DNA of 32,347 bases from NCBI GenBank assembly GCA_903839205.1, contig CAIMBM010000186.1:1-32347 (forward strand), read 5' to 3'. How positions within the stretch are numbered: the first letter of the stretch is position 1; every line of letters starts with the position of its first letter. The notes under the pieces are model-generated. The model did no database searches. It had not been told where the DNA came from and saw only the letters and a program-made list of their open reading frames with translations. A program made the translations under genes and the position numbers. The stretch is from an uncultured Holophagaceae bacterium. GTDB lineage: Bacteria > Acidobacteriota > Holophagae > Holophagales > Holophagaceae. This document shows, piece after piece, positions 8,669-29,062 of the stretch.

Positions 8669-8887
8669 GGCCCTGTCGGGATAGGGCCCGCCTGAGCTGC
8701 AGTACCGTGTTATGAAACAGGGCACAGGCCACGGAGATGCCTCGTAAGCCGCTGGTCGGAATGGCCCCTGGGCCCGCGTGGAGGAGCATCAGGGGCGCCA
8801 GGATCCGCTAGAATATCCCTTGCCAGGATGAGAAATCGGTCAGGCGCACCCAGGTAAAATCCAACCATTAAAGCAAAGGCGATTTCC

Positions 8888-9352
8888 ATGAATCGGGCCA
8901 AATGCCTTGCCGCAGTGACCCTTCCCTCTCTGCTCTCCTTTGCCCAGTCGCCGGCTTCGACTCGGGCCCAGGCCCTGGTGAAGCAGGCCGTGGCTTTTGC
9001 GAAGCAGAACGGCCTGGCCAAGTTGATCGAGGAGACCACCACGCCCAGGGGCAGATTCCATGTGAACAGGGAAGACGCACTTCACATCTTCATCTACGAC
9101 GGACGCGGCATGGCGAAGGCCTTCGGCGACCAGACCGGCCCCGCCGCGGCCAAGAGCCGCTGGGACCGGCGGGACCCCGACGCCGTGATGATCCTCCAGA
9201 AGCTGCAGCGGGTCGCCAAGAACCAGGAGAGTGGCTGGGTGGATTACAAGTACGCCAATCCCGCCACCAACCTCCTCGACCAGCGGGCCTCCTATTTCGA
9301 ATTCTATGAAGGACACCTGATCGGCTGCGGCATCGAGAAGGCCGGGGACTGA
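8888..9352 (+). CDS. Putative periplasmic single Cache-domain protein
   Basis: N-terminal signal-like segment; ARALVKQAVAFAKQNGLAKLIEE, LHIFIYDGRGMAKAFG, SGWVDYKYANPATN resembles sCache_2 proteins. Confidence 0.65.
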   Translation: MNRAKCLAAVTLPSLLSFAQSPASTRAQALVKQAVAFAKQNGLAKLIEETTTPRGRFHVNREDALHIFIYDGRGMAKAFGDQTGPAAAKSRWDRRDPDAVMILQKLQRVAKNQESGWVDYKYANPATNLLDQRASYFEFYEGHLIGCGIEKAGD

Positions 9353-9935: not shown

Positions 9936-10871
9936 TCAACGGGAAAGGAAGGCCTGCAGGAGCGGCTCCACGAGGTCCTTCCCCCGGAGTGAGGCCAGCC
10001 AGCGCGCCGGGATCGCCTGCACCCCGTCGCGGAGCCCCGCGATGCCCCCCGCCACGCAGGCGGTGGTGTCGGTGTCGTTCCCGAACTGGATGGCGGCCCT
10101 GACCACCGCCTCGTAGCTCCCGGCCTCCACGGCCTGGACGGCCGTAAGGAGCGTGTCCACCACATGGCCCGTGCCCCGGGCGGGATCCGGATCCCGGGGG
10201 TGGATTCTCCCGTCGTACTCGAGGCGCTCGGGAGTGCCGGGGGGGAATCTCGCCTCCAGCTTGTCCATGGCCTCGACCCACGGCAGGGAAGCTCCGGACA
10301 GAATGCCGCGGGCCCAGAGGCAGTAGAGGGCACAGCAGAGCCCGGACCGCACGTGCCCATGGGTGATGCTCGACTGCAGCATGGCATCGGCGATCAGGTC
10401 CCCGTCCGCACCCTCATGCCAGAGGGCCAGCGGGAGGACCCGCATCAGGGCCCCGCCCCCGTTGCTCCACTCGCCCCTCGGGGCGCATTCCATGAGGGGC
10501 CTCCCTTCCAGGTACCGTTCCAGGGCTCGGCGGGTCTGCAGCCCCACGTCGAACACATCGTGGTCCACGGCGAGATACCCGTCGCGCAGCCAGCGGCAGA
10601 GCCGGCCCATGAGGTCCCCGGGGTCCATACGGCCCCGCTCCAGCAGCGAACTGAGCAGGCACAGAGCCTGGGATCCGTCATCGCTCCAGGTGCCCGGTTC
10701 CACGCCCAGGTGGGCCCGGTGGAAGCCCCGGGGGGGCTCCATCTCGATGCGATCAAAGGGTGGGATGGTCCGGGGCGGTGCGAACTCGTAGGGTACCCCC
10801 AGGGCATCCCCCACGAGCAGGCCCCAGATGCCGCCGGCCATGCGCTCCGCTCTCGTCAGGGAGGGGGCCAT
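9936..10871 (-). CDS. draG: ADP-ribosyl-[dinitrogen reductase] hydrolase
   Basis: ADP-ribosylglycohydrolase motifs: GGIWGLLVGDALGVPYEF, GTWSDDGSQALCLL, SITHGHVRSGLCCALY, FGNDTDTTACVAGGIAGL; TGATG coupling with draT. Confidence 0.92.
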   Translation of the reverse strand: MAPSLTRAERMAGGIWGLLVGDALGVPYEFAPPRTIPPFDRIEMEPPRGFHRAHLGVEPGTWSDDGSQALCLLSSLLERGRMDPGDLMGRLCRWLRDGYLAVDHDVFDVGLQTRRALERYLEGRPLMECAPRGEWSNGGGALMRVLPLALWHEGADGDLIADAMLQSSITHGHVRSGLCCALYCLWARGILSGASLPWVEAMDKLEARFPPGTPERLEYDGRIHPRDPDPARGTGHVVDTLLTAVQAVEAGSYEAVVRAAIQFGNDTDTTACVAGGIAGLRDGVQAIPARWLASLRGKDLVEPLLQAFLSR

Positions 10872-11677
10872 CAGTAGAGCAGTTTCTTGACGCGGTACTC
10901 GCCGCCCAGCACGAGGAATTCCCGTTCGCTTTCCAGCCAGTTCCTGGGCAGGAGCCCGCCGAAGAACACGATCTTGGGCAGCGGCACCTGCACCTTCCAG
11001 ACCGAGGAGCCGAACTCCCAGGCGATCTCGGGATCGGAGGTGAAGGAGCTGAGGTTGTTGAGCGCCACCAGGGAACCGGCCCCGGCCCCTTCCCGATGGA
11101 CGGCGTATTCCTCGGGATCGTGGGTGCCCCGATAGAGGGTCATCCATCGCTCGCCCGGAAAGCGCCGCGCCAGTTCGTACTGGCAGAGCGTGTAGGCGAG
11201 GTCGAGCTGCATGGTGATGCTCTTGGGCCCGGCATAGCGTTTGTCGTTGAGGTACTTCATGCGGGCCGCCGGATCCTCGGCGAGGATCCCGCCATGGTAG
11301 GTGGCCAGCAGGCCGAAGCGGCTCTCCACCCAGCTCTTCAGCACCGCCCCCGAGCGGCTGTTGCTGTCGATCCTCCACCCCAGGAGGAAGTGCATGTAGT
11401 GCCGCTGGAGCACCTTTTCGGAGGCCTTCTCGGCGGCGCTGCGGGGGTCGATCTGGAAGCGATCAGCCATGTATTCGTGGAAGGCATCCCGGCGCTGTTC
11501 TGGGTCCTCCATCGGGTCCAGCCGATCGAAAAGGGCCCTTTCGGCCTCGCGGACCCCCGGGATCTCCAGGGGCAGAGGATCCTCCTGGAAAGACTGGCTG
11601 GCCAGCGCTCCGGGGGGCAGGTTGCAGCGACCGCCCACCGGAGTCGGCGAGGGCTCGGGCGAAGGTGATGGACTCAT
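10871..11677 (-). CDS. draT: NAD+-dinitrogen-reductase ADP-D-ribosyltransferase
   Basis: SITMQLDLAYTLCQYELARRFPGERWMTLYRGTHD, LNNLSSFTSDPEIAWEFGSSVW, VPLPKIVFFGGLLP; adjacent to draG and the nif operon; start at MSPSPSPE with aaggaaagg SD. Confidence 0.9.
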   Translation of the reverse strand: MSPSPSPEPSPTPVGGRCNLPPGALASQSFQEDPLPLEIPGVREAERALFDRLDPMEDPEQRRDAFHEYMADRFQIDPRSAAEKASEKVLQRHYMHFLLGWRIDSNSRSGAVLKSWVESRFGLLATYHGGILAEDPAARMKYLNDKRYAGPKSITMQLDLAYTLCQYELARRFPGERWMTLYRGTHDPEEYAVHREGAGAGSLVALNNLSSFTSDPEIAWEFGSSVWKVQVPLPKIVFFGGLLPRNWLESEREFLVLGGEYRVKKLLY

Positions 11678-11764
11678 CCTTTCCTTCTTCGGTGGAAGCG
11701 CGGAAAGGGAATCATAGCCTGCGGAAGCGGCCGAGGCCGCGGCACCCTTCAATGCCCCACCGGA

Positions 11765-11974
11765 TCAGTCGACGCCGATGAGGATGGTGGAGGCCTTGAT
11801 GACGGCATAGGCGATCTTGCCTTCCGCCAGGCCCAGCGAGTTCACGGACTGGTTGGTGATGACCGCCGCGAGCTGCTGGCCCCCCTCCAGCGTCAGGATC
11901 ACCTCCGCATTGACGGGTCCATGGGTGATTTTCGAGACCATGCCCTTGAGCTGGTTGCGGGCGCTGATCCTCAT
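11765..11974 (-). CDS. Molybdenum-pterin/molybdate-binding TOBE (Mop-like) protein
   Basis: 69 aa MRISARNQLKGMVSKITHGPVNAEVILTLEGGQQLAAVITNQSVNSLGLAEGKIAYAVIKASTILIGVD, a typical Mop/TOBE sequence. Confidence 0.9.
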   Translation of the reverse strand: MRISARNQLKGMVSKITHGPVNAEVILTLEGGQQLAAVITNQSVNSLGLAEGKIAYAVIKASTILIGVD

Positions 11975-12389: not shown

Positions 12390-13667
12390 TCAGGCGCAGC
12401 CCTGGCCCTTGCCGGAACACCCGTCCCCGCAGCGGAAGGGCTTGCCCAGTTTGCGGATCTGCCCGCCGACGGCGGCCATGGGCACCAGATCCGCCACCAG
12501 GCCTTCGGTTTCAAAGACCCGCAGGCCCCGGGCCTGCAGGATCCGGGTGGGCGAAGGGCCGATGCCCGCCACCAGGAGGGCGATGCAATCGGAGAGCAGG
12601 TCCCCCAGCTCCTCCCAGCGGGTGTTGCCGGTGCCCGTGGGAGGGGCCCGGCGGACGTCCACCTGGCGGCAGGCACCCGCCTCCACGGCGTAGACAAGCA
12701 GCTCGTCGGCCTCGCCCAGATGCTGATTGACGAACGCCCCCTCCAGGCTCGCCACAGCCACCAGCTTCCGCTCGGCGCCCGAGGGTGCGCTGCGGGCGTG
12801 GCGCTCGAGGGTGGCGTAGCGGTCCGGGGACATGGCCTCGCCGAGGCGCCCCACCGCGTCGGCACGGCAGCGGTTGCAGTGCTCCATCTGCGGCAGGTGG
12901 GTGGATGCGGCCTCCCGGGCCAGGGTCATCTCCCGGGCGGTGGGTGCCGGCAGGCTGGCGAACTCGGAGCCCTCCACGGGAATCATGGCCATGCAGTTGT
13001 GCATGGAAGCGCCGGCCAGCCTGCAGGCCGCCGCCACCTCGCCCACGTGCTGATCGTTGAGGCCGGGCACCACGATGGTGTTCACCTTCACCAGGATGCC
13101 GAGGGCGGCCATGCGGGCGATGCCCTCCCGCTGCCGGGACCAGAGCAGCTCCGCTGCCTCGCGGCCGCGGTGGATGTTCCGGCCGTCTCGGATCCAGGCA
13201 TAGAACAGCTTGCCGATCTCGGGATCTACGGCGTTGACGGTCACGGTGACATGGCTCACGCCGGCCGCGGCCAGGGCATCCGCGTGCTGGGGCAGCGCCA
13301 GCCCGTTGGTGGCCACGCAAAGCAGGGTCTCGGGGTGCTTCTCGTGGATGCGCCGGAGGGTGCTGAGGGTGGCGTCGGCGCTGGCCAGGGCATCGCCGGG
13401 GCCGGCGATGCCCGCCACGGAGATGGATGGATCCGCCTCGAGTATTTCGTCGAAGTAGCGCTCGGCCTGCCAGGGCTGCAGGATGGTGCTGGTGACACCC
13501 GGGCGGCTTTCGGCCACGCAGTCGTAGTCCCGGTTGCAGTAGTGGCACTGGACATTGCAGGCCGGGGCCACGGGCAGGTGGGCCCGGCCTTGGGTGTGCT
13601 TTGCATCCGCATCGAAACAGGGGTGGCCGGCCGTCGTCCGGGCGGCAAGGGGCTCATTGGTAGGCAT
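12390..13667 (-). CDS. nifB: Nitrogenase FeMo-cofactor biosynthesis protein NifB (radical SAM plus C-terminal NifX-like domain)
   Basis: CX3CX2C motif PACNVQCHYCNRDYDCVAESRPGVTS; GIAGPGDALA; C-terminal domain VASLEGAFVNQHLGEADELLVY. Confidence 0.96.
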   Translation of the reverse strand: MPTNEPLAARTTAGHPCFDADAKHTQGRAHLPVAPACNVQCHYCNRDYDCVAESRPGVTSTILQPWQAERYFDEILEADPSISVAGIAGPGDALASADATLSTLRRIHEKHPETLLCVATNGLALPQHADALAAAGVSHVTVTVNAVDPEIGKLFYAWIRDGRNIHRGREAAELLWSRQREGIARMAALGILVKVNTIVVPGLNDQHVGEVAAACRLAGASMHNCMAMIPVEGSEFASLPAPTAREMTLAREAASTHLPQMEHCNRCRADAVGRLGEAMSPDRYATLERHARSAPSGAERKLVAVASLEGAFVNQHLGEADELLVYAVEAGACRQVDVRRAPPTGTGNTRWEELGDLLSDCIALLVAGIGPSPTRILQARGLRVFETEGLVADLVPMAAVGGQIRKLGKPFRCGDGCSGKGQGCA

Positions 13668-15030
13668 AGCCCATCTCCGATGAATCCTGCTGATTGGCCA
13701 GCAGGGCGTTGGCCACCTCGTCGAAGAGCCGCTGGGTGCCGCGGTACCCGAGGTGGAGGATGCGTCCGGCGCCGATGCGGTCGTGGACGGGGAAGCCGAT
13801 GCGGACGAGGGGGATGCCCAGGGCCCGGGCCATGGGGTAGGCCTTGCTGGGCCCGAGCACCAGGTCGGGTTTCAGCTCGATCACGCGCCGCTGGATGCTG
13901 TCGTAGTCTGCGTCCTCCATCACCTCAAAGGCCCCCGGTGCCAGCCCCAGCGCTTCCAGGGCCGGAGCCATGCGGTGGGTCAGGGCGCCGCTGGCCACGA
14001 GCACGGGAATCAGGCCTATTTCGGCGCAGAAGCCGGCCACGGCCACGGCCAGGTCGGGGTCCCCCACCACGGCCACCCGCCGGCCGGACACGTACTTGTG
14101 GCCGTCCACATAGGCATCCACCAGGCGGCCCCGCTCGGCGCTGAGCCAGGCCGGGATGGCCGCCGCCGCTGCTCCGGCCGCGTCCGTCGCCGCGAAGGCC
14201 GCCAGGGACGCCAGCACCGCGTCCGTGGCGCGGACGCCGATGGGCAGGCTGGCCCTGACCAGGGGCACCCCAAAATCCCTTTGCAGGCTTGCGCCGGGCC
14301 CGGGTTCCAGGGTGGCTCCCAGTTGCAGGGTGCCGATGGCCCGGCCCGCATCGGCGACGTCGGCGAGGGCGGTCCCCCCTTCAGGAATGGGGGCGTAGCT
14401 GGCCAGGCTGGGCCCGTCCAAGGTCTCGCTGTAGTCCGGCAGCATCAGCAGGGGCAGGCCGAAGGCCTCCACGAGCTCGCGCAGGTGGCGCAGGTCCGCG
14501 GGGGACACCGGGCCGGGCAGGAGGTTGAGGTGGGACATCGGCGTGCCGGCCTTGGCCGTGACCTTCAGGATGGCCGCCACGGTGTCGTGGAAACCCCGAT
14601 ACTGGCAACCCTTGAAGCTGGGCGTGGACACGTGGATGATCGGCGGCAGGCTGGGATCTTCGGTGGTGATCTCGCGGAGGATGCCCTCGGTGTCCTCCCC
14701 GATGGTCTCGGCCAGGCAGGTGGTGCAGACGCCGATCACTTCGGGCGCGTACTGGCGCACCATGTTCTTGATGGCGGCCGCAAGGTTGCTCTGGCCGCCG
14801 AAGATGGTGGCGGACTCGTCGAAGGACGTGGAGCCCACATCCATGGGTTCCCGGAAGTGGCTGATGAGGTAGCGCCGAATGTAGGTGGCGCAGCCTTGTG
14901 AGCCGTGGATGAGGGGCATGCAGCCCCGCAGCCCGCGGAAGGCCAGGACGGAACCCAGGGGCGCGCAGACCCGGCAGCTGTTGGTGGCGGCGGGGCGCTT
15001 GCTGGAGGGGACGGCGATCGGCAGGCTCAT
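13654..15030 (-). CDS. nifN: Nitrogenase cofactor scaffold NifN
   Basis: NifK-like: CAPLGSVLAFRGLRGCMPLIHGSQGCATYIRRYLISHFREPMDVGSTSFDE; between nifE and nifB; start at MSLPIAVP. Confidence 0.93.
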   Translation of the reverse strand: MSLPIAVPSSKRPAATNSCRVCAPLGSVLAFRGLRGCMPLIHGSQGCATYIRRYLISHFREPMDVGSTSFDESATIFGGQSNLAAAIKNMVRQYAPEVIGVCTTCLAETIGEDTEGILREITTEDPSLPPIIHVSTPSFKGCQYRGFHDTVAAILKVTAKAGTPMSHLNLLPGPVSPADLRHLRELVEAFGLPLLMLPDYSETLDGPSLASYAPIPEGGTALADVADAGRAIGTLQLGATLEPGPGASLQRDFGVPLVRASLPIGVRATDAVLASLAAFAATDAAGAAAAAIPAWLSAERGRLVDAYVDGHKYVSGRRVAVVGDPDLAVAVAGFCAEIGLIPVLVASGALTHRMAPALEALGLAPGAFEVMEDADYDSIQRRVIELKPDLVLGPSKAYPMARALGIPLVRIGFPVHDRIGAGRILHLGYRGTQRLFDEVANALLANQQDSSEMGYAYQ

Positions 15031-16373
15031 GACAGCGCCTTGCCGGCCCGGCGGGGCACCAGGGACCACACAGGGCTGGTGACCGTGGCGTGGACCTCCC
15101 GGGCAAAGGCGGCACAGCCCTCGAAGCCCGCGAGGCCGATCTTCCGCTCGTGGTTGTGGTCGCAGAAGCCGATGCCCAGCTTGAAGGCCACGGGCCGCTC
15201 CTTCACCCCGCCGATGAACAGGTCCACATCCCGCAGGGCCAGCCAGGAGGCCATTTCAAGGGGATTCGAGTCGTCGGCCAGGATGGTGTCCGCGTCGCAG
15301 AGCTCCTTGAGGTGCTCGTAGTCGGCGGGGCCGCCGGTTTGCGTGCCGGCCATGGCCACCTGCATGCCGATCTGCCGCAGGGCTTTCACCAGGGAGAAGG
15401 CCTTGAAGGCCCCGCCCACGTAGAGCGCGGCCTTCTTGCCCTCCAGGTCCCTGCGGATGCGGGCCAGCTCGGGAAGCACCGCCTCCGTCTCGGCCTTCAC
15501 GATGTCCTTGGTGCGGCGGAGCATCCCGGGATCCCCGAAGTGCTTGGCGACCTGGTAGAGGGCGTCCGCGCAATCCTCCAGGCCGAAGAAGGACACCTGC
15601 ACATAGGGGATGCCGTACTTCTCCTTCATGAGCTTGGCCACGGAGGTCATGGAGCCCGCGCACTGCACGATGTTCAGCCTGGCGCCGTGGGCCTTCCGGA
15701 TGGTGTCCATCCGGCCGTCCCCGGTCATGGTGGCCACCACTTCCACGCCCATGCGCTCGAGATAGCCCTTGATGACCCAGATCTCGCCGGCGATGTTGAA
15801 GTCGCCCAGGATGTTCACGGAGTGGGGGCCGATGCCCTCCGTGGGCCCGGTGCCGATGAGCTGGTCCAGGGCCCGGCAGGCGGCGGAGTAGCCGTCCTTC
15901 TTGGTGCCCTTGAAGCCCTCGCTCTGCACGGGGATGACGGGAATGCCCAGCTCAGCGGTGGCCATGCGGCACACGGCCTCCACGTCGTCGCCGATGACAC
16001 CGGTGAGGCAGGTGGCATAGACGAAGGCGCCCTTGGGCCTGTGGATGGCCACCAGCTCCCGGAGGGCCCGGGCCAGCTTCTTCTCCCCGCCGAAGATGAC
16101 TTCCTCTTCCCGGATGTCGGTGTTGAAGGAGAGGCGGTGCAGCTGGGGACCGGAGGACTGGGCCCCCCGGATGTCCCAGGTGTAGGCGGCGCAGCCCACG
16201 GGCCCGTGGACCAGGTGCAGGGCGTCGGCGATGGGGTAGAGCACCACCCGCGAGCCGCAGAAGGAGCAGGCGCGCTGGGTCACGGACCCGGCCACGCTGG
16301 GGCGATCGCAGACGACGGCGCGGGCTTCCCCGGCGGTGACTACTTGGCGCTTGCGATCGTCCAGCAGGTCCAT
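15027..16373 (-). CDS. nifE: Nitrogenase cofactor scaffold NifE
   Basis: NifD-like: ADALHLVHGPVGCAAYTWDIRGAQSSGPQLHRLSFNTDIREEEVIFGGEKKLA, FVYATCLTGVIGDDVEAVC; ATGA overlap with nifN. Confidence 0.94.
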   Translation of the reverse strand: MDLLDDRKRQVVTAGEARAVVCDRPSVAGSVTQRACSFCGSRVVLYPIADALHLVHGPVGCAAYTWDIRGAQSSGPQLHRLSFNTDIREEEVIFGGEKKLARALRELVAIHRPKGAFVYATCLTGVIGDDVEAVCRMATAELGIPVIPVQSEGFKGTKKDGYSAACRALDQLIGTGPTEGIGPHSVNILGDFNIAGEIWVIKGYLERMGVEVVATMTGDGRMDTIRKAHGARLNIVQCAGSMTSVAKLMKEKYGIPYVQVSFFGLEDCADALYQVAKHFGDPGMLRRTKDIVKAETEAVLPELARIRRDLEGKKAALYVGGAFKAFSLVKALRQIGMQVAMAGTQTGGPADYEHLKELCDADTILADDSNPLEMASWLALRDVDLFIGGVKERPVAFKLGIGFCDHNHERKIGLAGFEGCAAFAREVHATVTSPVWSLVPRRAGKALS

Positions 16374-16394
16374 GGCGGTCTCACAGTCACAACG

Positions 16395-17798
16395 TCACAG
16401 GACGAGTTCGAAGGCGTGGTCGGGGGCGTCGCGGTCCTGCCGCTCCTGGATGGCGCTGATGATCTCCACCGCGAGGCGCAGGCTGCCCAGGTAGCCCACC
16501 GTGGGGAAGTAGCTGTGGCCGACCCGGTCGAGGATGGGCCAGCCCACCCGCACCAGGGGGATGTCCTCGGCCCGGCCGATGAACTTCCCGTAGGTGGTGC
16601 CCAGCAGCAGGTCCACCGGCTCATTCTTGATCCACTGGTGCAGCAGGAAGAGGTCGCCCTGGGCCTTCACGTTGGCGTCCGGGACACTATCGGCCAGGAT
16701 GTCCTTGATGCGGGTCTCGAAGGCGTTGCCCACGGAGCCCGTGAGGACGTGGACCGGCAACATGTCCATGTCCCGGCAGAACTCAGTGAGGGCGATGACG
16801 TGGTCAGGATCGCCGTAGATGGCCACCTTGCGGCCCGAGAGGTACTGGTGCATGTCGCTGATGACGTCGACCAGACGGCCCCGCTCGTCCTCGATCTGGG
16901 CGGGAACCTCCACGCCGGCGAGGCCCCGGAGGCTTTCGATGAAACGGTCCGTGGCGGCCAAGCCGATGGGCAGGTCCAGGTCCTGGAAGGGCACGCCGCA
17001 GGTGGTTTCCAGCAGGGTGGCGGCGTCCAGAGAAGCCCAGGTGCCGAGGGATAGGGTGGCCCTGGCATCGCCCATGGCCTTGATTTCGGGGAGGGTCGTG
17101 CCGCCCTTGGGGAAGAAGGCATGCTCCCCCGTGGCCGGTGCGTCCAGGACGCTGCTGGTATCCGGCAGCATGGTCATGGGCAGGCCGAAGGCGGCCACGA
17201 GGCGCTTGATCTCGGTCATGTCCGAGGGCTCCACCCAACCCGGGAGGATATTGATCGCCGTGGAGGGGGTCCCGGTGCTCTCCGAAAGGTATTTTACGAA
17301 TCCCTTCACCATCGCGCTGAAGCCCGTGACGTGGGAGCCCACGAAACTGGGCGTGTTGCAGTGCACCACCACCTTGCCCTCGGGGATGCGGCCTTCCTCC
17401 CGGGCCTTGCTGATGATGGTCGGGATGTCGTCGCCGATGACCTCGCTGAGGCAGGTGGTGTGGACGGCCACGATGTCGGGGTCGTACATCTCGAAGATGG
17501 TGCTGAAGGCCTGGGTGAGGTTGGCCATGCCCCCGAACACGGAGCTGCCTTCGGTGAAGGAGCTGGTGGAGGCCATGACCGGCTCCTTGAAGTGCCGGGT
17601 CAGGTGGCTCCGGTGGTAGGCGCAGCAGCCCTGGGAACCGTGGCTGTGGGGCAGGCAGCCGTGCACGCCCAGGGCGGCATAGACCGCGCCCACCGGCTGG
17701 CAGGTCTTCGCCGGGTTGATCTTCAGGGCGACGCGGTCGGCGACGGTGGAGGGGGTCGAGTCGAGCATGGGATTCTCCGGTTCGTGCTTCTGTTCCAT
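16395..17798 (-). CDS. nifK: Nitrogenase molybdenum-iron protein beta chain
   Basis: CQPVGAVYAALGVHGCLPHSHGSQGCCAYHRSHLTRHFKEPVMASTSSFTEGSSVFGG, VHTTCLSEVIGDDI; a second start at MLDSTPS is possible. Confidence 0.96.
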   Translation of the reverse strand: MEQKHEPENPMLDSTPSTVADRVALKINPAKTCQPVGAVYAALGVHGCLPHSHGSQGCCAYHRSHLTRHFKEPVMASTSSFTEGSSVFGGMANLTQAFSTIFEMYDPDIVAVHTTCLSEVIGDDIPTIISKAREEGRIPEGKVVVHCNTPSFVGSHVTGFSAMVKGFVKYLSESTGTPSTAINILPGWVEPSDMTEIKRLVAAFGLPMTMLPDTSSVLDAPATGEHAFFPKGGTTLPEIKAMGDARATLSLGTWASLDAATLLETTCGVPFQDLDLPIGLAATDRFIESLRGLAGVEVPAQIEDERGRLVDVISDMHQYLSGRKVAIYGDPDHVIALTEFCRDMDMLPVHVLTGSVGNAFETRIKDILADSVPDANVKAQGDLFLLHQWIKNEPVDLLLGTTYGKFIGRAEDIPLVRVGWPILDRVGHSYFPTVGYLGSLRLAVEIISAIQERQDRDAPDHAFELVL

Positions 17799-17870
17799 TC
17801 AGGGGCGGGTGCGCCTTCGGCAGGAGCCCAGCATGGGCTGCGCCTGGGGACCTGCAGGATGGGCTGCCTG

Positions 17871-19466
17871 TCAGGCGGACTGCTGCTTCCAGGGCGGAGA
17901 GATGAGCTTGGAGATGCGCTTGCCGATCATCCGGTCGATCTCCTGGTAGAAATTGGTTGCCCCGATGAAGCCCGCGTAGGGCCCGCCGTAGTCGTAGCTG
18001 TGCAGCTGCTTGCAGGGCACGCCCATCTTCTCGACCACGTACTTGTCCTTGACACCGCTGCAGAAGATGTCGGGCTTATAGGTGGCGATCAGCTTCTCCA
18101 TTTCGAAATGGCTGATGTCGTCGATGACGAGGGTGCCCTTCTTCATCTGGCTCATCATGCCGTCGTAGTCGCGCCAGTTGAATCCCTTCTTCTCGGCGGC
18201 GGCCAGCTCCTCCGGCGTGCGCCGGGGGGAATACCGGGTGTCGTCGGCGGTGATGTGCAGCTCCTCGATGTTCCGGGTATCCGCGTCCACCTTGATGGTG
18301 GGCAGGACCCGTCGGCCCTCGTAGTCGTCCCGGTGGGCGAACTCGTAGCCGGCGGCCACGGAGGTCATGCCCACTTCGCTGAACAGGTCCTGGTAGTGGT
18401 GGGCCCGGGAGCCCCCCACGAACAGCATGGCGGTCTTCCCGGCGAGGCGGGAGGCCACGTCCGCGCGGACGCTGACGACCTTCGCCAGCTCGTCGGCGAT
18501 GACCGCTTCCACCCGGGCGGTGAGGTCCTCGTTGCCGAAATACTCGGCGATCTTGCGCAGGCTCTTGGCAGTGCTGTCGGCACCGATGAAATTGACCTTG
18601 AACCAGGGGATGCCGAACTTGCTCTCCATCATCTCGGCCATGTAGTTGATGGACCGGTGGCACATCACCACGTTCAGCTTGGCGTTGTGCGACTGGGCGA
18701 TGTCATCGTACTTCACGTTCCCCGAGAAGGTCGCCACCAGGTGGATGCCGCAGAGCTCAAGGATGCGCTCGATCTCGAAGGCATCGCCCCCGATGTTGTA
18801 CTCCCCGAGGAGGTTGATGGAGAAGGGATGGTCCACGGGCGTGTCGTTCTCGCCCACCACATTCTTGAAGAGGCCGTTGTTGGCGATGTGGTGGCCCGCG
18901 GACTGGGAGACGCCCTTGTAGCCCTCGCAGGAGAACCCGAAGACGTTGATGCCCAGTTCCTCCTTCATCTGACGGGCGACGGCGTGGACATCGTCCCCGA
19001 TGAGCCCGACCGGACAGGTCGAGTAGAGCCCGATGGCCGTGGGCTTGAGCAGGGCGTAGGCCTCCCGGCAGGCCTGGGCCAGCTTCTTCTCCCCGCCGAA
19101 GACGATGTCCTCTTCCTGCATGTCCGTGGAAAAGGCGTAGTGGATGAAGTTGGCGATCCCGTCGCCCGTAGCGGCCTGGTTGCGCCGGGAGAGCCAGGCG
19201 TAGTAGCTGCAGCCGATGGGGCCGTGGACGATGTGGACCATGTCCTTGATGGGCCCCATGACCACGCCCTTGCAGCCGGCGTAGCAGCAGCCGCGCTGGG
19301 AGATGATGCCGGGGATCGTGCGGACATTGGCTTCGATCTCGGCCGGCACCTCCGGATCATTGACCAGGATGTGCTTGGCCCGCTTCTTCCCGACTTTGCC
19401 GGGGTAGCTCTTGACGACTTCGTCGCGGAAGGCCTCGGGGCTGGGGATGGGTTCTCGTTCGCTCAT
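17871..19466 (-). CDS. nifD: Nitrogenase molybdenum-iron protein alpha chain
   Basis: QRGCCYAGCKGVVMGPIKDMVHIVHGPIGCSYYAW, YSTCPVGLIGDDVHAV, VVMCHRSINYMAEMMESKFGIPW, LHSYDYGGPYAGF. Confidence 0.97.
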   Translation of the reverse strand: MSEREPIPSPEAFRDEVVKSYPGKVGKKRAKHILVNDPEVPAEIEANVRTIPGIISQRGCCYAGCKGVVMGPIKDMVHIVHGPIGCSYYAWLSRRNQAATGDGIANFIHYAFSTDMQEEDIVFGGEKKLAQACREAYALLKPTAIGLYSTCPVGLIGDDVHAVARQMKEELGINVFGFSCEGYKGVSQSAGHHIANNGLFKNVVGENDTPVDHPFSINLLGEYNIGGDAFEIERILELCGIHLVATFSGNVKYDDIAQSHNAKLNVVMCHRSINYMAEMMESKFGIPWFKVNFIGADSTAKSLRKIAEYFGNEDLTARVEAVIADELAKVVSVRADVASRLAGKTAMLFVGGSRAHHYQDLFSEVGMTSVAAGYEFAHRDDYEGRRVLPTIKVDADTRNIEELHITADDTRYSPRRTPEELAAAEKKGFNWRDYDGMMSQMKKGTLVIDDISHFEMEKLIATYKPDIFCSGVKDKYVVEKMGVPCKQLHSYDYGGPYAGFIGATNFYQEIDRMIGKRISKLISPPWKQQSA

Positions 19467-19584
19467 GATGCATCCAGGGTGGCGTGTGCTGGTGGCAGAG
19501 GAATAGTGCTAGGGCTTCGCCCGTCCTGATGCAGTGCGCATCCGGATCGATGAAGGGCGTTGATCTTGGTGGACCGCCAGGAAC

Positions 19585-20499
<915 letters not shown>

Positions 20500-20538
20500 A
20501 AACCAGTAATGACGCCATCTTCCCGCCGACCCGGTTTA

Positions 20539-20552
20539 CCTGTTCGAACAGG
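20539..20552. promoter_or_regulatory. 14-bp perfect palindrome upstream of nifH, candidate operator
   Basis: cctgttcgaacagg. Confidence 0.4.
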
Positions 20553-20584
20553 ATGATACGCTTTTCGCGGCACCAATCTGTTCC

Positions 20585-20604
20585 GCGGAACGTTTTCGTT
20601 CCGC
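20585..20604. repeat. Perfect 8-bp hairpin directly after the nifA stop codon
   Basis: gcggaacg-tttt-cgttccgc; overlaps palindrome gttccgcggaac (20580-20591). Confidence 0.6.
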
Positions 20605-20606
20605 CC

Positions 20607-22211
20607 CTACTTGAACCGCTGCCAGTCGATTCCGTAGAGGCGGATCTTGTACTGGATCATCCGCTTGCTGAGGCCCAGGCGCTTGGCCGCCTGGGACTGG
20701 TTGCCCCGGGTGTCCTTGAGCGCCTCGGTGATCAGCTCGATCTCGAAATTGGCCACCCGGTCTGCAAAGCCGCTGTCCTCGGAGGCGTCGCCAAGCCCTG
20801 GCTTGGTCTGGTAGCGGTTCAGCTGCAGGCTCGGGGGGAGGTGGTGCCCGTGGATCACGTCCCCCTCGGCCATGACCGCGGCCCGCTCGATCACGTTCTC
20901 CATCTCGCGCACGTTCCCGGGCCAGTGGTAGGCCGTGAGCATGTCGATGGCCGGGGTGTCGATGCGGACGATGGTCTTGCCCATCTCCCGGGAGAACCGA
21001 TCCACGAAGGCGTCCGCCAGCAGCATCATGTCCGCCTTGCCGCGCTCGCGCAGGGGCGGCATGTGGATGGGGAACACGTTCAGCCGGTAGTAGAGGTCGG
21101 AACGGAACCTCCCGGCGACGATGTCGCCTTCCAGGTGCCGGTTGGTGGCGGCGATGATGCGGGCGTCGCTCACGATCGTCTCGGACCCGCCGACCCGCTC
21201 GAAGCGCTTGGTCTGGAGCACGCGCAGGAGACGGGTCTGCACCCCCGGCGGCAGCTCGCCGATCTCGTCGAGGAACACCGTGCCGCCCTGGGCGCGCTCG
21301 AACACGCCCGCCCGGCGGGCGGCGGCCCCGGTGAAGGCGCCCTTCTCGTGGCCGAACAGCTCGCTCTCCACCAGACTCTCGGGAATGGCGCCGCAATTCA
21401 CTTCGATGCAGGGCTTGGCCCGCCGGGGGGAGAGGTCATGGATGAGCTGGGCGAGGACGCCCTTCCCCGTGCCCGTCTCGCCGGTGATCAGCACCGAGGT
21501 ATCCACACCTGCGACCTTCGCGGCCAGGCGGGTCACGGCCTCCATGGCCGGCGACCGGCCCACCAGCCGGTCGAAGGTGGCCACATGCACGCGCTGGTAG
21601 GCTTCCAGCCGGTCCTCCAGGCGCCGGCGCTGCACGAAGGGCCCCACCAGGTAGGCGACCTCGCTCAGCAGCCGCAGGTCTCCGTCCGGATCCGTGGCCT
21701 CGGCCAGGGGTCTGTCCGCCGAGAGGGCGCCCACGGCCTTGCCACGATATTGTATCGGCACGCAGAAGAAGGCCATGCGGGCCAGGTCCAGCCCCTGCCG
21801 CAGCCCACTCCGGTCGAGGAAACCGTCCTTGGCCTTCACCCCCGCGAGGTACACGGGCGTGTTGGTGGCGATGACCCGGCCCGTGATGCCCTCGCCCGGG
21901 CGGTAGCGCATGAGGATGCCCGTGTCCGTGGGCACCCCCGCCGCCGTGATGTCCGCCGCGATTTCGTCCTCGGCGTCATTGAGCAGGGTGACCACGCCCC
22001 GGGCATAGCCCTGGTCCCGGTCCAGCCAGCGCAGCACCTCGCTCAGGGCCGAGGCGGCATTGTCCTCGGTCGAAAGGAAGCGTCCGATGCGTGCCAGCAG
22101 GCCCAGCCGCGCGCAGGCGGTATTGTTGGGCACGGGGAAGGTGCCCAGCATCGGACAAGGGGCGAAGAACCCCTCGCTGTCGCCATCGGTTGAGCTCAAC
22201 GTCACCACCAC
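20607..22211 (-). CDS. nifA: Nif-specific sigma-54-dependent transcriptional activator (GAF, AAA+, Fis-type HTH)
   Basis: GETGTGKGVLAQLIH, ESELFGHEKGAFTGAAARRAGVFE, GTVFLDEIGELPPGVQTRLLRVLQ, C-terminal NQSQAAKRLGLSKRMIQYKIRLYGI; directly upstream of nifH. Confidence 0.92.
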   Translation of the reverse strand: MVVTLSSTDGDSEGFFAPCPMLGTFPVPNNTACARLGLLARIGRFLSTEDNAASALSEVLRWLDRDQGYARGVVTLLNDAEDEIAADITAAGVPTDTGILMRYRPGEGITGRVIATNTPVYLAGVKAKDGFLDRSGLRQGLDLARMAFFCVPIQYRGKAVGALSADRPLAEATDPDGDLRLLSEVAYLVGPFVQRRRLEDRLEAYQRVHVATFDRLVGRSPAMEAVTRLAAKVAGVDTSVLITGETGTGKGVLAQLIHDLSPRRAKPCIEVNCGAIPESLVESELFGHEKGAFTGAAARRAGVFERAQGGTVFLDEIGELPPGVQTRLLRVLQTKRFERVGGSETIVSDARIIAATNRHLEGDIVAGRFRSDLYYRLNVFPIHMPPLRERGKADMMLLADAFVDRFSREMGKTIVRIDTPAIDMLTAYHWPGNVREMENVIERAAVMAEGDVIHGHHLPPSLQLNRYQTKPGLGDASEDSGFADRVANFEIELITEALKDTRGNQSQAAKRLGLSKRMIQYKIRLYGIDWQRFK

Positions 22212-22449: not shown

Positions 22450-24288
22450 ATGGCAGGGCTCCTAAGGATCATCAGCGCGCTGCTTGACCTGCTGGTCCCG
22501 CCCTCGGCCCGCGCCGATCCCAGGCTGCGTCTCCGCCACCGCGGCATCGCGAAGTCCCTCCTCTCCATCTCGGGCGTGGTCACGATCCTCTTTGCCGTCT
22601 ATATCGCGGTGCGGCCCCAGCTGGGCCTGCAGGAAGTGATCCTGTTCGTGGCGGCCATCGTCTCGCCGGCCCTGGGGGCCCTGTACGTGCGCCTCACGGG
22701 CCAGATCCAGGGGGGCCTCATTCTCACGAACGTGGCGGGCATCGCCATCGTCGCCTACTGGTGCGGGGTCACGGGCGGCATCAGGTCCGTGGCCCTGCCC
22801 TGGTTCCTGCCGAACCTGTTCCTCCTGAGCACCTTCGGCAGCAAGCGCATGCTGATCATCACCTCCGGCCTCCTCTTCGCGGTCATCGCCGGACTGTTCC
22901 TGGCGACCATCCGGGGCTGGCTCCCCCCGAGCCAGGTGCCCGCCATCCTGGTCCCGGAGTTCAATTTCCTCTCGATGGTCTCCAGCGTCGGGGTGGTGGT
23001 GCTCGCGGCCATCGCCATGACCGGCGAGCGCGAGAAATCCAAGCAGTTCCTCCTGGAGGCCAAGAACGCCGCCGAGGCTGCCAATCAGGCGAAATCGGTC
23101 TTTCTCGCCTCCATGAGCCACGAGCTGAGGACGCCCCTGAACGCGATCCTGCTTTCTGCGGACCTGCTCAGGGAGGACCAGGATCCGCCCCTGAGCCCCA
23201 AGCAGCTGCACACGGCCGACGAGCTCCGCCTCGGCGGACAACTCCTCCTGGGGCTCGTGAACCAGGTGATGGAGCTCAGCAGCATCGAGGCCGGAAAGGT
23301 GTCCCTCTCCATGGGGGCGACCCGCCTCTCCGAGGCGCTCTCGGATGCCCTCAGCGTGATCCAGCCGCTGGCGTTGCGCCGCCACATCCGCATCGACTTC
23401 AACCTCGAGGCCCTCGCGGACCTGGTCGTCCTCGCGGACCCCTCCCAGCTGAGATCGGTCCTGATCAACCTCCTCTCCAATGCGGTGAAATTCAACCGCC
23501 CCCAGGGCGAGGTCCGAGTCGGCGCCCAGAGGACCGACCAAGGGACGGTCAGGATCGAGATCCGCGATACGGGACCGGGGCTCCCTTCCCGGGCCGGAGC
23601 GGGCGACTTCCAGCCCTTCAACCGGCTCGGAGCCGAAGGTTCCCACATCGAGGGGACCGGCCTGGGACTTCCCATCACCGAACGCCTCGTCCAGATGATG
23701 TCCGGCCGCCTGGGCTTCGAAAGTGTGCAGGGGCAGGGCAGCACCTTCTGGGTCGAGCTGGCTGCCCAGGCACCCCTCCCGAAAGCCGAGCAGCCCCCGC
23801 CGCCCCGCGCCCTGCCCGCTCCGGCCAGAGAGGGAATCCCCTCGGCCAAGCCCCTCGACGTGCTCATCGCCGAGGATCACCCGATCAACCAGAAACTCCT
23901 GCGCTTGACCCTGGAGAAGCGGGGGCACCGGGTGACGGTCGTGTCGAACGGTGCCGAGGCGCTCCAGGCCCTGAATGACCACGCCCAGAACGCACCCCAT
24001 TTCGATGTCGTCCTCATGGACCTGATGATGCCCATCATGGATGGCCTGGAGGCCACCCGGCGCATCCGGCAGATGGAGTCCGGCAGCGGGCGCCGCATCC
24101 CCATCGTGGCCGTGACCGCCTGCGCCATGGACAGCGACCGGGCGGCCTGTTTCGCGGCAGGCATGGACGACTACCTCGCCAAACCCGTGGACACCCAGAA
24201 CCTCATCCGGATCCTGGCGGCCATCCCGAGCGGCAATCATGCCGGCCAGGGACAGGGAACCACGAATCACGGGGTCGGAGCCTCCTGA
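22450..24288 (+). CDS. Membrane hybrid sensor histidine kinase (TM region, HisKA, HATPase_c, receiver)
   Basis: Multiple hydrophobic N-terminal segments; FLASMSHELRTPLNAILLSADLL; NLLSNAVKFN; GTGLGLPITERLVQMMSGRLGFES; LIAEDHPINQKLL, DVVLMDLMMPIMDGLEATRRIR. Confidence 0.92.
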   Translation: MAGLLRIISALLDLLVPPSARADPRLRLRHRGIAKSLLSISGVVTILFAVYIAVRPQLGLQEVILFVAAIVSPALGALYVRLTGQIQGGLILTNVAGIAIVAYWCGVTGGIRSVALPWFLPNLFLLSTFGSKRMLIITSGLLFAVIAGLFLATIRGWLPPSQVPAILVPEFNFLSMVSSVGVVVLAAIAMTGEREKSKQFLLEAKNAAEAANQAKSVFLASMSHELRTPLNAILLSADLLREDQDPPLSPKQLHTADELRLGGQLLLGLVNQVMELSSIEAGKVSLSMGATRLSEALSDALSVIQPLALRRHIRIDFNLEALADLVVLADPSQLRSVLINLLSNAVKFNRPQGEVRVGAQRTDQGTVRIEIRDTGPGLPSRAGAGDFQPFNRLGAEGSHIEGTGLGLPITERLVQMMSGRLGFESVQGQGSTFWVELAAQAPLPKAEQPPPPRALPAPAREGIPSAKPLDVLIAEDHPINQKLLRLTLEKRGHRVTVVSNGAEALQALNDHAQNAPHFDVVLMDLMMPIMDGLEATRRIRQMESGSGRRIPIVAVTACAMDSDRAACFAAGMDDYLAKPVDTQNLIRILAAIPSGNHAGQGQGTTNHGVGAS

Positions 24289-24599: not shown

Positions 24600-25949
24600 A
24601 TGAGTCAGTACGTCAACGAAGTCCTTGAGGGTCTGAAGAAGAAGGCGCCCTGGGAAAGCCTCTTCATCCAGGCCGCCACCGAGATCCTCCACTCCCTGGC
24701 GCCGGTCCTCGAGAAGGAGCCCAAGTACAAGAAGAACGCCATCCTCGAGCGCCTCGTCGAGCCCGAGCGCGCCGTCTCCTTCCGGGTGCCCTGGGTGGAC
24801 GACAAGGGCCAGATCCGCATCCATACCGGCTACCGCGTGCAGTTCAACAGCGCCATCGGGCCCTACAAGGGCGGCATCCGCTTCCATCCCAACGTCACCC
24901 TCGACACGCTGAAATTCCTGGGCTTCGAGCAGATCTTCAAGAACAGCCTCACGGGCCTGCCCATGGGCGGCGGCAAGGGCGGTTCCGCCTTCGATCCCAA
25001 CGGCAAGTCCGACGGCGAGATCATGCGCTTCTGCCAGGCCTTCATGATGGAGCTCTTCCGCCACATCGGCCCCGACACGGACGTGCCCGCCGGCGACATC
25101 GGCGTGGGGGGACGCGAAGTGGGCTACATGTTCGGGATGTACAAGAAGCTGGCCAACGAGTTCACCGGCGTGCTCACCGGCAAGGGCCAGTACTGGGGCG
25201 GCAGCCTCGTGCGTCCCGAGGCCACGGGCTACGGCGTCGTCTACTTCGCCGAGGAGATGCTGAAGACCAAGGGCGACAGCATGAAGGGCAAGAAGGTCGC
25301 CGTATCCGGCTTCGGCAACGTGGCCTGGGGCGCCGTCACCAAGGCCACCCAGCTCGGGGCGAAGGTCGTGACCATCTCCGGTCCCGATGGCTACATCTAT
25401 GACGCCGATGGGATCTCCGGCGAGAAGATCGTCCACATGGAGGAGATGCTGCGCATCGACCGCATGGCCGTGGCGCCCTACGTCCAGAAGTACAAGAGCG
25501 CCCAGTTCCATGCGGGCAAGCGCCCCTGGGAACAGGTGGTGGACGTGGCCCTGCCCTGCGCCATCCAGAACGAGCTGAACCTGGACGAGGCCAAGACCCT
25601 GCTTGCCAACGGCTGCAAGGCCGTGGTCGAGGGCGCCAACATGCCCAGCACCCTGGATGCCGTGGAGTTCTTCCAGGCCAACACGGACAAGATCCTCTAC
25701 GCCCCCGGCAAGGCCTCCAACGCCGGCGGCGTGGCCACCTCGGGCCTCGAGATGAGCCAGAACTCCATGCGCCTCGGCTGGACCGCCGAGGAAGTGGACG
25801 CCCGCCTGCACCAGATCATGGTCAACATCCACAAGTCCTGCGTGGATGCCGCCACCCGCTTCGGCACCCCCGGCAACTACGTGAACGGCGCGAATATCGC
25901 CGGCTTCCTGAAGGTGGCCGACTCGATGATCGACCAGGGGCTCGTCTAG
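24600..25949 (+). CDS. gdhA: Glutamate dehydrogenase (probably NADP-dependent)
   Basis: YRVQFNSAIGPYKGGIRFHPNVTLDTLKFLGFEQIFKNSLTGLPMGGGKGGSAFDP, VPAGDIGVGGREVGYMFG, RPEATGYGVVYF. Confidence 0.96.
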   Translation: MSQYVNEVLEGLKKKAPWESLFIQAATEILHSLAPVLEKEPKYKKNAILERLVEPERAVSFRVPWVDDKGQIRIHTGYRVQFNSAIGPYKGGIRFHPNVTLDTLKFLGFEQIFKNSLTGLPMGGGKGGSAFDPNGKSDGEIMRFCQAFMMELFRHIGPDTDVPAGDIGVGGREVGYMFGMYKKLANEFTGVLTGKGQYWGGSLVRPEATGYGVVYFAEEMLKTKGDSMKGKKVAVSGFGNVAWGAVTKATQLGAKVVTISGPDGYIYDADGISGEKIVHMEEMLRIDRMAVAPYVQKYKSAQFHAGKRPWEQVVDVALPCAIQNELNLDEAKTLLANGCKAVVEGANMPSTLDAVEFFQANTDKILYAPGKASNAGGVATSGLEMSQNSMRLGWTAEEVDARLHQIMVNIHKSCVDAATRFGTPGNYVNGANIAGFLKVADSMIDQGLV

Positions 25950-25966
25950 TCCCTGGATCTCCTCAG

Positions 25967-26004
25967 CGCAGAAAAGGGGGCCGCGAGCGGCCCCCTTTTC
26001 TGCG
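25967..26004 (+). terminator. Strong terminator-type hairpin after gdhA
   Basis: Perfect inverted repeat cgcagaaaagggggccgc-ga-gcggcccccttttctgcg; the tttt lies in the 3' arm. Confidence 0.8.
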
Positions 26005-26041
26005 TAGAACAGTAAACTGCCTCAAAGGCAGGGCCTCCACA

Positions 26042-29000
26042 ATGATCAGTCGGGAATTCAACGAGATCTTCCGGAAGTACACCTCGGACAAAGAGATCTT
26101 CCATGACCTGATGCCGCTGCGCACCCGCGAGATCCTGCTGGTGGCTCCGGCCTTCGACGCCTTCACCCTGGAGCAGGATGGCCTGCTGACGGAGATCCTC
26201 TTCGAGGGCTACTACCAGCTCAACATGAGCAACCCGCCCCGGGTGATCAACGTGTCCACCCTGGACGATGCGCTGGAGAAGTGCGCCGCCCGCCACTTCG
26301 ACATGATCATCGTCATGAGCCGCCTGGGCCAGGGCGGCCATGTGGAGCTGTCCAAGGCGCTCCGGAAGGCCGCCCAGGGCATCCCGATCTACCTGCTCCT
26401 CAACGACAACGTGGAAGTCGGCGCCATGGACCGGAGGCGCCAGGAACTCCAGCGCCACTACGACCAGATCTTCGTCTGGAACGGGAACCCCGAGATCTTC
26501 ATGGCCATGGTGAAGCTGATGGAGGACCGGGCCAACGTCGAGAACGACACCAAGGTCGGCCTCACCCGGGTCATTCTGCTCGTCGAGGACAGCATCCGCT
26601 ACTACTCGCGGTACCTGCCCATCCTCTACGCCGAGATCCTCAAGCAGACCACTCGGCTGGCCAAGGATCTGACCGTGGATGGCATGACGCGCACTCTGTC
26701 CATGCGGGTCCGGCCCAAGGTGCTGCTGGCCACCACCTACGAGGAGGCCATCGCCTTTTGCGACAAGTACCAGGACTTCCTGCTCTGCGTCATCACCGAC
26801 AGGAAGTTTCCCAAGGACGGGGCCCTGGATCGAGAGGCTGGCCTCAAGGTCATCAAGGCGGTGAAGGACCGGAATCCCCACCTCCCGACCCTGCTGCAGT
26901 CCTCGGACCCCTTCAAGGAATCCTGGGCCACCGCCATCAACAGCGGCTTCCTGAACAAGAACTCGTACACGCTCGGCGCCGAGCTCTCCAATTTCTTCCA
27001 CGAGAGCCTGGGCTTCGGCGACTTCATCTTCCGCGACGAGCGGGGCGCCGAGATCGCCCGCGCCACGGACATGGAGGACCTGCAGGCCAAGCTGCGGACC
27101 GTGCCCGTGGAGTCGCTCGTCTACCATGCCTCGCGGAACCACTTCTCCGCCTGGATCATGGCCCGCGGGGAGGTCCAGGTGGCGAAGGTACTGGGGAAGT
27201 TCCGCCTGTCCGACTACCGGGACCCCGAGGAAATGCGCACCTTCCTCATCAACGTCGGCGACTATGTGCAGCGCATGAAGACCCTGGGGAAGGTGGTTCC
27301 CCTGACCGAATCCACGCCGAAGGATGAGCCCAATATCCTGCGCCTGGCCCCGGGTTCCATGGGGGGGAAGGGCCGCGGCGTCGCCTTCATCCACTCCCTG
27401 CTCTCCCGCCTGGACCTGGACAACCTGCTCCCCGAGGCGAACATCCGCATCCCCCGCTCGGCCATCATCGGCACCGAGGAGTTCAACGGCTTCATCAGCC
27501 GAAACGGCCTGCGGCAGATGCTCCAGAACGACGTCGACGACGACGCCATCAAGCGCCGCTTCCTCATGGGCTCCCTGTCCCCGGAGCTGATGGCCAGGCT
27601 GCGCCTCTTCCTGGCCAAGCATGCACGGGTGCCCCTGGCGGTGCGCTCGTCGGGCCTGCTGGAGGACAGCCTCTCCCATCCCTTCGCGGGCCTTTACAGC
27701 ACCTTCTTCCTGCCCAACAACGACCCCGACCCTTCGGTGCGCGAGGCCCAGCTCACCGAGGCCATCCGGCTGGTCTACGCCTCGGTCTATTCGAAGGCCG
27801 CGCGCTCCTACTTCCAGGCCATCGACTACAAGATCGAGGAAGAGCAGATGGCCATCCTCATCCAGGAGGTCTCGGGACGCCGCTTCGGGGACCGCTTCTA
27901 CCCGCACATCTCCGGTGTGGCCCAGTCCTTCAACTACTACCCGGTGGCCTACACCCAGCCCCAGGACGGCATCGCCAACATCGCCGTGGGCCTCGGGAAG
28001 TACGTGGTCGAGGGGGGGAAGACCTACCGCTTCGCCCCCCCCTACCCCGAGATGGACATGTTGCCCCCCAGGGAGCAGCTGCGCACCACCCAGAAGCAGT
28101 TCTACGCCCTGGACATGAGCCGCACCTCCGTGGACCTGTACGGCGGGGAGGACGCGACGCTGATCAGCCTGGACATCAGCCAGGCCGAGCAGGACGGCGC
28201 CCTCTGGCATTGCGCCTCCGTCTGGGACGCCAACGACGACCGGATCCGCGACGGCCTGGACAGCCCCGGGCCCCGCGTCGTGAACTTCCGGAACATCCTG
28301 AAGTACGACCAGTTCCCCCTCCCGAAGATCCTCCAGACCCTCCTGGAACTCATCCGCGAAGCCATGGAGACCCCCGTGGAGATCGAGTTCGCCGTTGATT
28401 TGGACAAGGACCCCGAGAACGGCAAGCCCACCTTCACCCTGCTCCAGATCAAGCACCAGCTCCTCGACAACGGCGAAGTGAACCTCTCGGTGTCGGACCT
28501 GGACCCCGCGGAGCTCTTCCTCTTCTCGGAGAAATGCGTGGGGAACGGCATCGTGGAGGGACTGCGCAACGTCGTGTGGGTGGACCCCGAGGGCTTCGAC
28601 AAGTTCGAGACCCCGGCCCTGGCCGCCCAGATCGAGCAGGTCAACGACCGGTTCCGCACCGAGGGGGGGAAGTACGTGCTGCTGGGCCCAGGCCGCTGGG
28701 GCAGCAACGACCATCACCTGGGCATCCCCATCGCGTGGTCCATGATCTCCTGCGCCCAGGTGATCGTGGAGTACGCCATGGCCAACTTCCAGGCGGACGC
28801 CTCCCTGGGCTCCCACTTCTTCCACAACGTCACCTCCCTGAACATCGGCTACTTCACCGTGCCCTACCCCCGGGGCAGCAGCCTCCTCGACTGGGACTGG
28901 CTGCGCCAGCAGCCCGAGGTCTGGCGCTCGGGCTGCCTGGTCCACAGCCGCCTCGAGGAACCTGTGCACATCGTCATGGATGGACGGCGCAGCGCCTCGG

Positions 29001-29062
29001 CCATCTTCAAGCACAAGCCAACGACGCGCACCCCGCACCCCGAGGAGGAGCCCGGGCTCTGA
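26042..29062 (+). CDS. Large PEP/pyruvate-binding (PPDK_N-like) protein with N-terminal receiver-like domains
   Basis: RVILLVEDSIRYYSRYLP and VITDRKFPKDG receiver-like region; GSMGGKGRGVAFIHSLL, PLAVRSSGLLEDSLSHPFAGLYSTF typical of the PEP synthase/PPDK N-terminal domain. Confidence 0.82.
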   Translation: MISREFNEIFRKYTSDKEIFHDLMPLRTREILLVAPAFDAFTLEQDGLLTEILFEGYYQLNMSNPPRVINVSTLDDALEKCAARHFDMIIVMSRLGQGGHVELSKALRKAAQGIPIYLLLNDNVEVGAMDRRRQELQRHYDQIFVWNGNPEIFMAMVKLMEDRANVENDTKVGLTRVILLVEDSIRYYSRYLPILYAEILKQTTRLAKDLTVDGMTRTLSMRVRPKVLLATTYEEAIAFCDKYQDFLLCVITDRKFPKDGALDREAGLKVIKAVKDRNPHLPTLLQSSDPFKESWATAINSGFLNKNSYTLGAELSNFFHESLGFGDFIFRDERGAEIARATDMEDLQAKLRTVPVESLVYHASRNHFSAWIMARGEVQVAKVLGKFRLSDYRDPEEMRTFLINVGDYVQRMKTLGKVVPLTESTPKDEPNILRLAPGSMGGKGRGVAFIHSLLSRLDLDNLLPEANIRIPRSAIIGTEEFNGFISRNGLRQMLQNDVDDDAIKRRFLMGSLSPELMARLRLFLAKHARVPLAVRSSGLLEDSLSHPFAGLYSTFFLPNNDPDPSVREAQLTEAIRLVYASVYSKAARSYFQAIDYKIEEEQMAILIQEVSGRRFGDRFYPHISGVAQSFNYYPVAYTQPQDGIANIAVGLGKYVVEGGKTYRFAPPYPEMDMLPPREQLRTTQKQFYALDMSRTSVDLYGGEDATLISLDISQAEQDGALWHCASVWDANDDRIRDGLDSPGPRVVNFRNILKYDQFPLPKILQTLLELIREAMETPVEIEFAVDLDKDPENGKPTFTLLQIKHQLLDNGEVNLSVSDLDPAELFLFSEKCVGNGIVEGLRNVVWVDPEGFDKFETPALAAQIEQVNDRFRTEGGKYVLLGPGRWGSNDHHLGIPIAWSMISCAQVIVEYAMANFQADASLGSHFFHNVTSLNIGYFTVPYPRGSSLLDWDWLRQQPEVWRSGCLVHSRLEEPVHIVMDGRRSASAIFKHKPTTRTPHPEEEPGL

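Follow-up and report, generated by a model that had tools for sequence, protein, structure and literature searches.

A swivel-less ATP-grasp protein with two receivers, encoded beside glutamate dehydrogenase genes in several phyla, is a putative regulator of the 2-oxoglutarate/glutamate node

The 1006-aa protein encoded near the end of the window (the whole stretch of DNA analysed, 32,347 nucleotides) is probably a switch for nitrogen entry into glutamate, since genes of its family adjoin glutamate dehydrogenase (GDH) genes in multiple phyla. We propose a family of GDH-linked regulators, characterized by a PPDK_N domain, a C-terminal domain with GPGRWG and HFF motifs and a gene located near GDH; the window protein has all of these. 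GDH is one of the main ammonia-assimilating enzymes of Bacteroidota and of many anaerobes, and in Bacteroides fragilis a reversible, ammonia-driven inactivation of GDH was reportedly described in the 1980s, the modifying protein not being identified. Being a large signalling ATP-grasp protein whose gene adjoins gdhA in many phyla, the protein described here offers a concrete candidate for a GDH modifier. In our reading, which has a putative chemistry and is about as likely as not to be correct, the protein is an ATP-grasp regulator without a swivel that acts on the 2-oxoglutarate/glutamate node under two-component control and possibly modifies GDH covalently. The class suggested by an earlier note on this DNA, a putative phosphorelay-controlled ATP-dependent phosphotransferase or sensor, is still the leading one. 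The features on which the analysis draws are collected in Table 1.

Table 1 Features of the gdhA/regulator region, with positions in the window
Feature	Position	Strand	Evidence or remark
gdhA, NADP-specific glutamate dehydrogenase, conserved neighbour	24600..25949	+	NF006929, 721 bits (cut-off 536)
Hairpin with 18-bp stem and A/T tracts, intrinsic-terminator-like	25966..26005		Between gdhA and the regulator gene; fold z = -5.4
GDH-linked REC-REC-PPDK_N-Cterm protein, 1006 aa	26042..29062	+	ATG start; homologues over the full length are known from many phyla
REC1, aa ~28-168, aspartate-less receiver	26123..26545	+	AlphaFold2 fold, Foldseek PleD matches, column counts
REC2, aa ~175-322, intact receiver with a long insertion after alpha1	26564..27007	+	AlphaFold2, Foldseek, alignment
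Asp253 codon, predicted phospho-acceptor of REC2	26798..26800	+	Invariant in the 50- and 9-sequence alignments
Linker, aa ~324-430	27011..27331	+	Sub-threshold DUF5752 similarity (Pfam): E=0.018 for the window protein and 1.2e-4 for relative L133
PPDK_N-type ATP-grasp, aa ~432-808	27335..28465	+	Pfam PPDK_N, E=3.7e-34; Foldseek 5hv3/1kbl; conservation; motifs
C-terminal domain, aa ~812-992	28475..29017	+	AlphaFold2 alone; no Pfam family or solved fold matched
His925 codon, invariant	28814..28816	+	50/50 and 9/9 in two alignments; all aligned paralogues

The start and the full length of the protein are kept in same-genus genomes at 80-96% identity, while more distant relatives share 35-56% identity over the full length; its nearest named relatives belong to Holophagaceae/Geothrix. 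A Pfam search of the protein matched PPDK_N (PF01326) at aa 440-805 with 118.9 bits against a cut-off of 27, gave Response_reg and DUF5752 at sub-threshold level only, and returned neither a PEP-utilizers swivel nor a PEP barrel. AlphaFold2, run on a 50-sequence alignment, modelled the whole protein with a mean pLDDT of 83. All the motifs listed in the earlier note are present, and its description of two receivers, one degenerate and one intact (AlphaFold2, Foldseek, column counts), of a PPDK_N-like region (Pfam, Foldseek 5hv3) and of a protein devoid of both the swivel and the C-terminal barrel (Pfam, AlphaFold2, Foldseek) was borne out. Structure prediction gave receiver folds and did not give a complete canonical PPDK/PPS architecture, the two points on which that note had staked its reading. 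The C-terminal domain and the linkage to gdhA had been overlooked.

The N-terminus folds as two receivers in the model, and the REC-REC part of PleD was its top Foldseek match (E~1e-6). REC1 is an aspartate-less receiver: position 92, where the acceptor Asp is expected, is occupied by M, T, I or L in 50 of 50 aligned sequences. In REC2 the receiver fold carries the acid pair (E182 and D183), the acceptor (D253), the Ser/Thr (S287) and the Lys (K306), and these five residues are invariant in the 50 close sequences as well as in 9 distant ones. The tandem receivers are shared with PleD-type response regulators, whose output is, however, a GGDEF domain, whereas that of the window protein is an ATP-grasp.

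The middle region resembles PPDK and rifampin phosphotransferase (5hv3, E=4e-12 by Foldseek). K443 (in GGKG) and R535 (in VRSS) are invariant in the alignments, and E780, E782 and Q802 show little or no variation; owing to this conservation of catalytic residues, the ATP site looks competent, as judged by its motifs. At the last position of the LLQxR motif, which corresponds to R337, most close relatives have Lys (K804), whereas Arg prevails among the distant ones. These residue equivalences rest on motif reading against the PPDK of the genus and on a HMMER alignment with rifampin phosphotransferase, since hhalign of the family profile with that single PPDK gave no useful alignment.

PPDK, PEP synthase and rifampin phosphotransferase (PF01326 with PF00391) have the PPDK_N ATP-grasp fold and its motifs in common with the window protein which, unlike these enzymes, is devoid of the PF00391 His-swivel and of the PEP barrel, and has receiver inputs and a different C-terminal domain. 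The latter occupies the place where the swivel would stand. Folded alone, it gave a pLDDT of 89 and a pTM of 0.87 (AlphaFold2), with no Foldseek match in the PDB at E<=0.001 and a best PDB profile match of only E=0.39; Pfam did not assign it convincingly to a family in any of the 50 members searched. Its invariant motifs are GNG, GPGRWG (R885, W886) and S-x-G-x-HFF (H925), and the module, including the His, is common to the paralogues. On the strength of this conservation, His925 is a candidate phospho-acceptor. We rejected the possibility that the domain is a disguised swivel, as neither a swivel-fold match (Foldseek) nor Pfam support was obtained. A swivel acting in trans, for which the earlier note had proposed a search, was rejected likewise: no free-standing swivel was found in five near-complete same-genus genomes, where the PF00391 matches fall within reading frames 873-1010 aa long that include the PPDK of the genus.

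In the window, gdhA ends 92 bp upstream of the regulator gene, and the pair is kept in all 20 same-genus loci (L005-L024). The arrangement of the two genes differs between taxa. They lie on the same strand in Geothrix, overlap on one strand in three loci of related families (L028, L033, L034), converge in another (L026) and diverge in Bacteroidota, as seen for the annotated gdhA of Parabacteroides distasonis and in many genome loci. According to whole-genome coordinates, 19 of the 33 genomes (which are not independent of each other) have a family member with a GDH gene at <=3 kb, while random placement expects 0.29 and reached a maximum of 3 in 2000 trials. In the remaining 14 genomes GDH is absent within 3 kb; some of these are contig-split or have other 2-oxoacid genes adjoining the family member. 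GDH-linked members are scattered across deep branches of the family tree.

When neighbours were clustered with no gene picked in advance, GDH was the commonest cluster, occurring in 42 of the 98 short-flanked loci, followed by the alpha and beta subunits of 2-oxoacid:ferredoxin oxidoreductase (13 loci each), for which the label KorAB-type holds at the family level only, 2-oxoglutarate specificity not being established. Family copies without a nearby GDH often adjoin this oxidoreductase. In one locus (L080), a gltA-type NADPH glutamate synthase and its FAD partner lie downstream of the regulator, gdhA also adjoining it. The function, left unassigned in the earlier note, thus acquires a likely target through linkage to GDH, 2-oxoacid:ferredoxin oxidoreductase and glutamate synthase.

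The paralogues keep the PPDK_N domain and the C-terminal module, and differ in their N-termini. Those of L029, L124, L125 and L126 directly adjoin a second GDH family, and in the genome G055 every one of the four GDH genes adjoins a family member. That the association recurs with both GDH families argues most strongly for GDH being the object of the family. The paralogues in L124, L125 and L126 carry a C-terminal Polbeta-type nucleotidyltransferase.

Glutamine synthetase is set by GlnE and GlnD, and PPDK by its own regulatory protein. The logic proposed here, i.e. the post-translational setting of an enzyme of nitrogen or PEP metabolism, is analogous, and a Polbeta-type nucleotidyltransferase, as in GlnE/GlnD, is fused to some GDH-linked paralogues. 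In the window protein, a profile search found no nucleotidyltransferase domain and no match to the GlnE/GlnD or PPDK regulatory protein families. PPDKs have been named among the effectors associated with aspartate-less receivers (PMC4395418), and the REC-PPDK fusions of earlier censuses join REC, including an aspartate-less receiver, to a PPDK-type domain. The census passages that deal with them do no more than list the fusion, and describe neither the two-receiver layout nor the missing swivel, the C-terminal domain or the GDH linkage. Our literature search, limited in coverage, found no described function, GDH link or account of the C-terminal domain. An outline of the architecture was thus known before, while the GDH association and the tail domain appear to be new within the literature searched.

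We propose that a histidine kinase would phosphorylate Asp253 of REC2, a second input being provided by the aspartate-less REC1 or, in the Bacteroidota copies, by an extra N-terminal sensory domain. The receivers would then switch the PPDK_N ATP-grasp domain, which may use ATP to phosphorylate or pyrophosphorylate either the C-terminal domain, where His925 is the best candidate site, or a partner protein without an intermediate. In this way the activity of the neighbouring GDH or, in other copies, that of 2-oxoacid:ferredoxin oxidoreductase would be set. In this scheme, we infer the direction of signalling, the phosphoryl acceptor and the GDH protein, rather than its expression, as the target. 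Should it be correct, a PPDK_N enzyme would operate without a His-swivel domain. Only tentatively do we extend the scheme to a widespread, as yet undescribed class of signalling enzymes, in which the phosphate of ATP would pass through a swivel-less PPDK_N domain and a new C-terminal His domain to GDH or 2-oxoacid:ferredoxin oxidoreductase, so that a phosphorelay-driven covalent switch would act on ammonia assimilation in many anaerobes.

A different role for the same catalytic parts would be that of a metabolic phosphotransferase: in a reaction resembling that of PEP synthase and involving a new acceptor domain, the ATP-grasp and the C-terminal domain would phosphorylate some small molecule close to the 2-oxoglutarate/glutamate node, the receivers acting only as a gate. 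To our knowledge, the substrates of the characterized PPDK_N enzymes are small molecules, glucans or antibiotics, which they modify by means of a His swivel; this precedent, together with the intact catalytic motifs of the ATP-grasp and the resemblance of the invariant Arg, His and Trp of the C-terminal domain to an active site, speaks for such an enzyme. The input domains differ widely, however. The partner enzymes are diverse too (two GDH families, KorAB-type and gltA-type), which is easier to reconcile with a regulator than with a single, invariable step of a pathway. We consider the metabolic role unlikely, though a serious contender.

Catalysis might also be lacking altogether, the protein being a scaffold whose ATP-grasp reports energy charge by sensing ATP/ADP and which binds GDH, inhibiting or activating it without covalent change. 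Such a scaffold could dispense with the swivel, which is missing from the protein and from the near-complete relatives as a free-standing domain, and could tolerate K804 in place of the usual Arg in most relatives. But the practical invariance of K443, R535, E780, E782 and Q802 goes further than binding by itself would be expected to require, and some GDH-linked paralogues are fused to a nucleotidyltransferase. We regard a purely sensory role as unlikely, though likewise a serious contender. The similarity to PPDK_N and the generic annotation "PEP/pyruvate-binding domain-containing protein" could finally be taken to mean that the protein is the remnant of a diverged PEP synthase or PPDK, its proximity to gdhA being inherited synteny with no functional meaning. 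Inherited synteny is at variance with a linkage that extends over several phyla, differing orientations and two GDH families, and that exceeds the random expectation to the extent given above; a remnant is at variance with full-length conservation and with invariant receiver residues. We strongly disfavour this explanation, which has a very small chance of being correct. The preferred reading is that of a regulator acting on GDH, possibly by covalent modification, or on KorAB.

Seven same-genus relatives have the long, palindromic, terminator-like hairpin at the corresponding place downstream of gdhA, its sequence changing in both arms across the genus, and transcription of gdhA probably ends mostly there. 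Its conservation makes strict co-transcription in Geothrix doubtful; linkage need not mean one transcript. The hybrid kinase encoded at 22450-24288, which the earlier note had considered as a partner in phosphotransfer, was rejected as a dedicated partner because it is not a conserved neighbour: among the same-genus loci with enough flank, a counterpart stands beside gdhA only in L044, the closest relative. No conserved partner kinase was found among the neighbours examined. A link to anti-phage defence was rejected as well, the window protein having no PADLOC match.

The gdhA/regulator pair lies beside a nif cluster (nifH, nifD, nifK, nifE, nifN and nifB with a NifA-type activator; window 12390-22211, minus strand), the NifD of which has about 50-60 aa extra in comparison with its model; this setting of the pair also speaks for the preferred reading. 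In L124, L126 and L125 (12833-17935), the nucleotidyltransferase-bearing PPDK_N proteins are encoded directly downstream of the second GDH family, and the L125 copy contains two PPDK_N modules. Another protein of this locus (L125:7737-10433, plus strand) joins a PPDK_N module to an N-terminus that by eye recalls a RecA/KaiC-type ATPase, without Pfam support. A paralogue of ~780 aa (L026:9699-12047, L031:7094-9415) consists of PPDK_N and the same C-terminal domain without receivers, and its gene adjoins one resembling a SpoU-type methyltransferase. Downstream of the regulator in L080, a zinc-ribbon-like protein (8184-9053) is encoded and the gltA-type glutamate synthase (10007-11827) has a cysteine-rich N-terminal extension. 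The N-terminal extension of the Bacteroidota copies appears GAF-like by eye, Pfam giving no match to it. A Crp-type regulator with cNMP-binding and HTH domains is encoded divergently from gdhA in L129 (5033-6223, minus strand), and its N-terminus is similar, at 25% identity, to the sensory extension that precedes the receivers in Bacteroidota members of the family.
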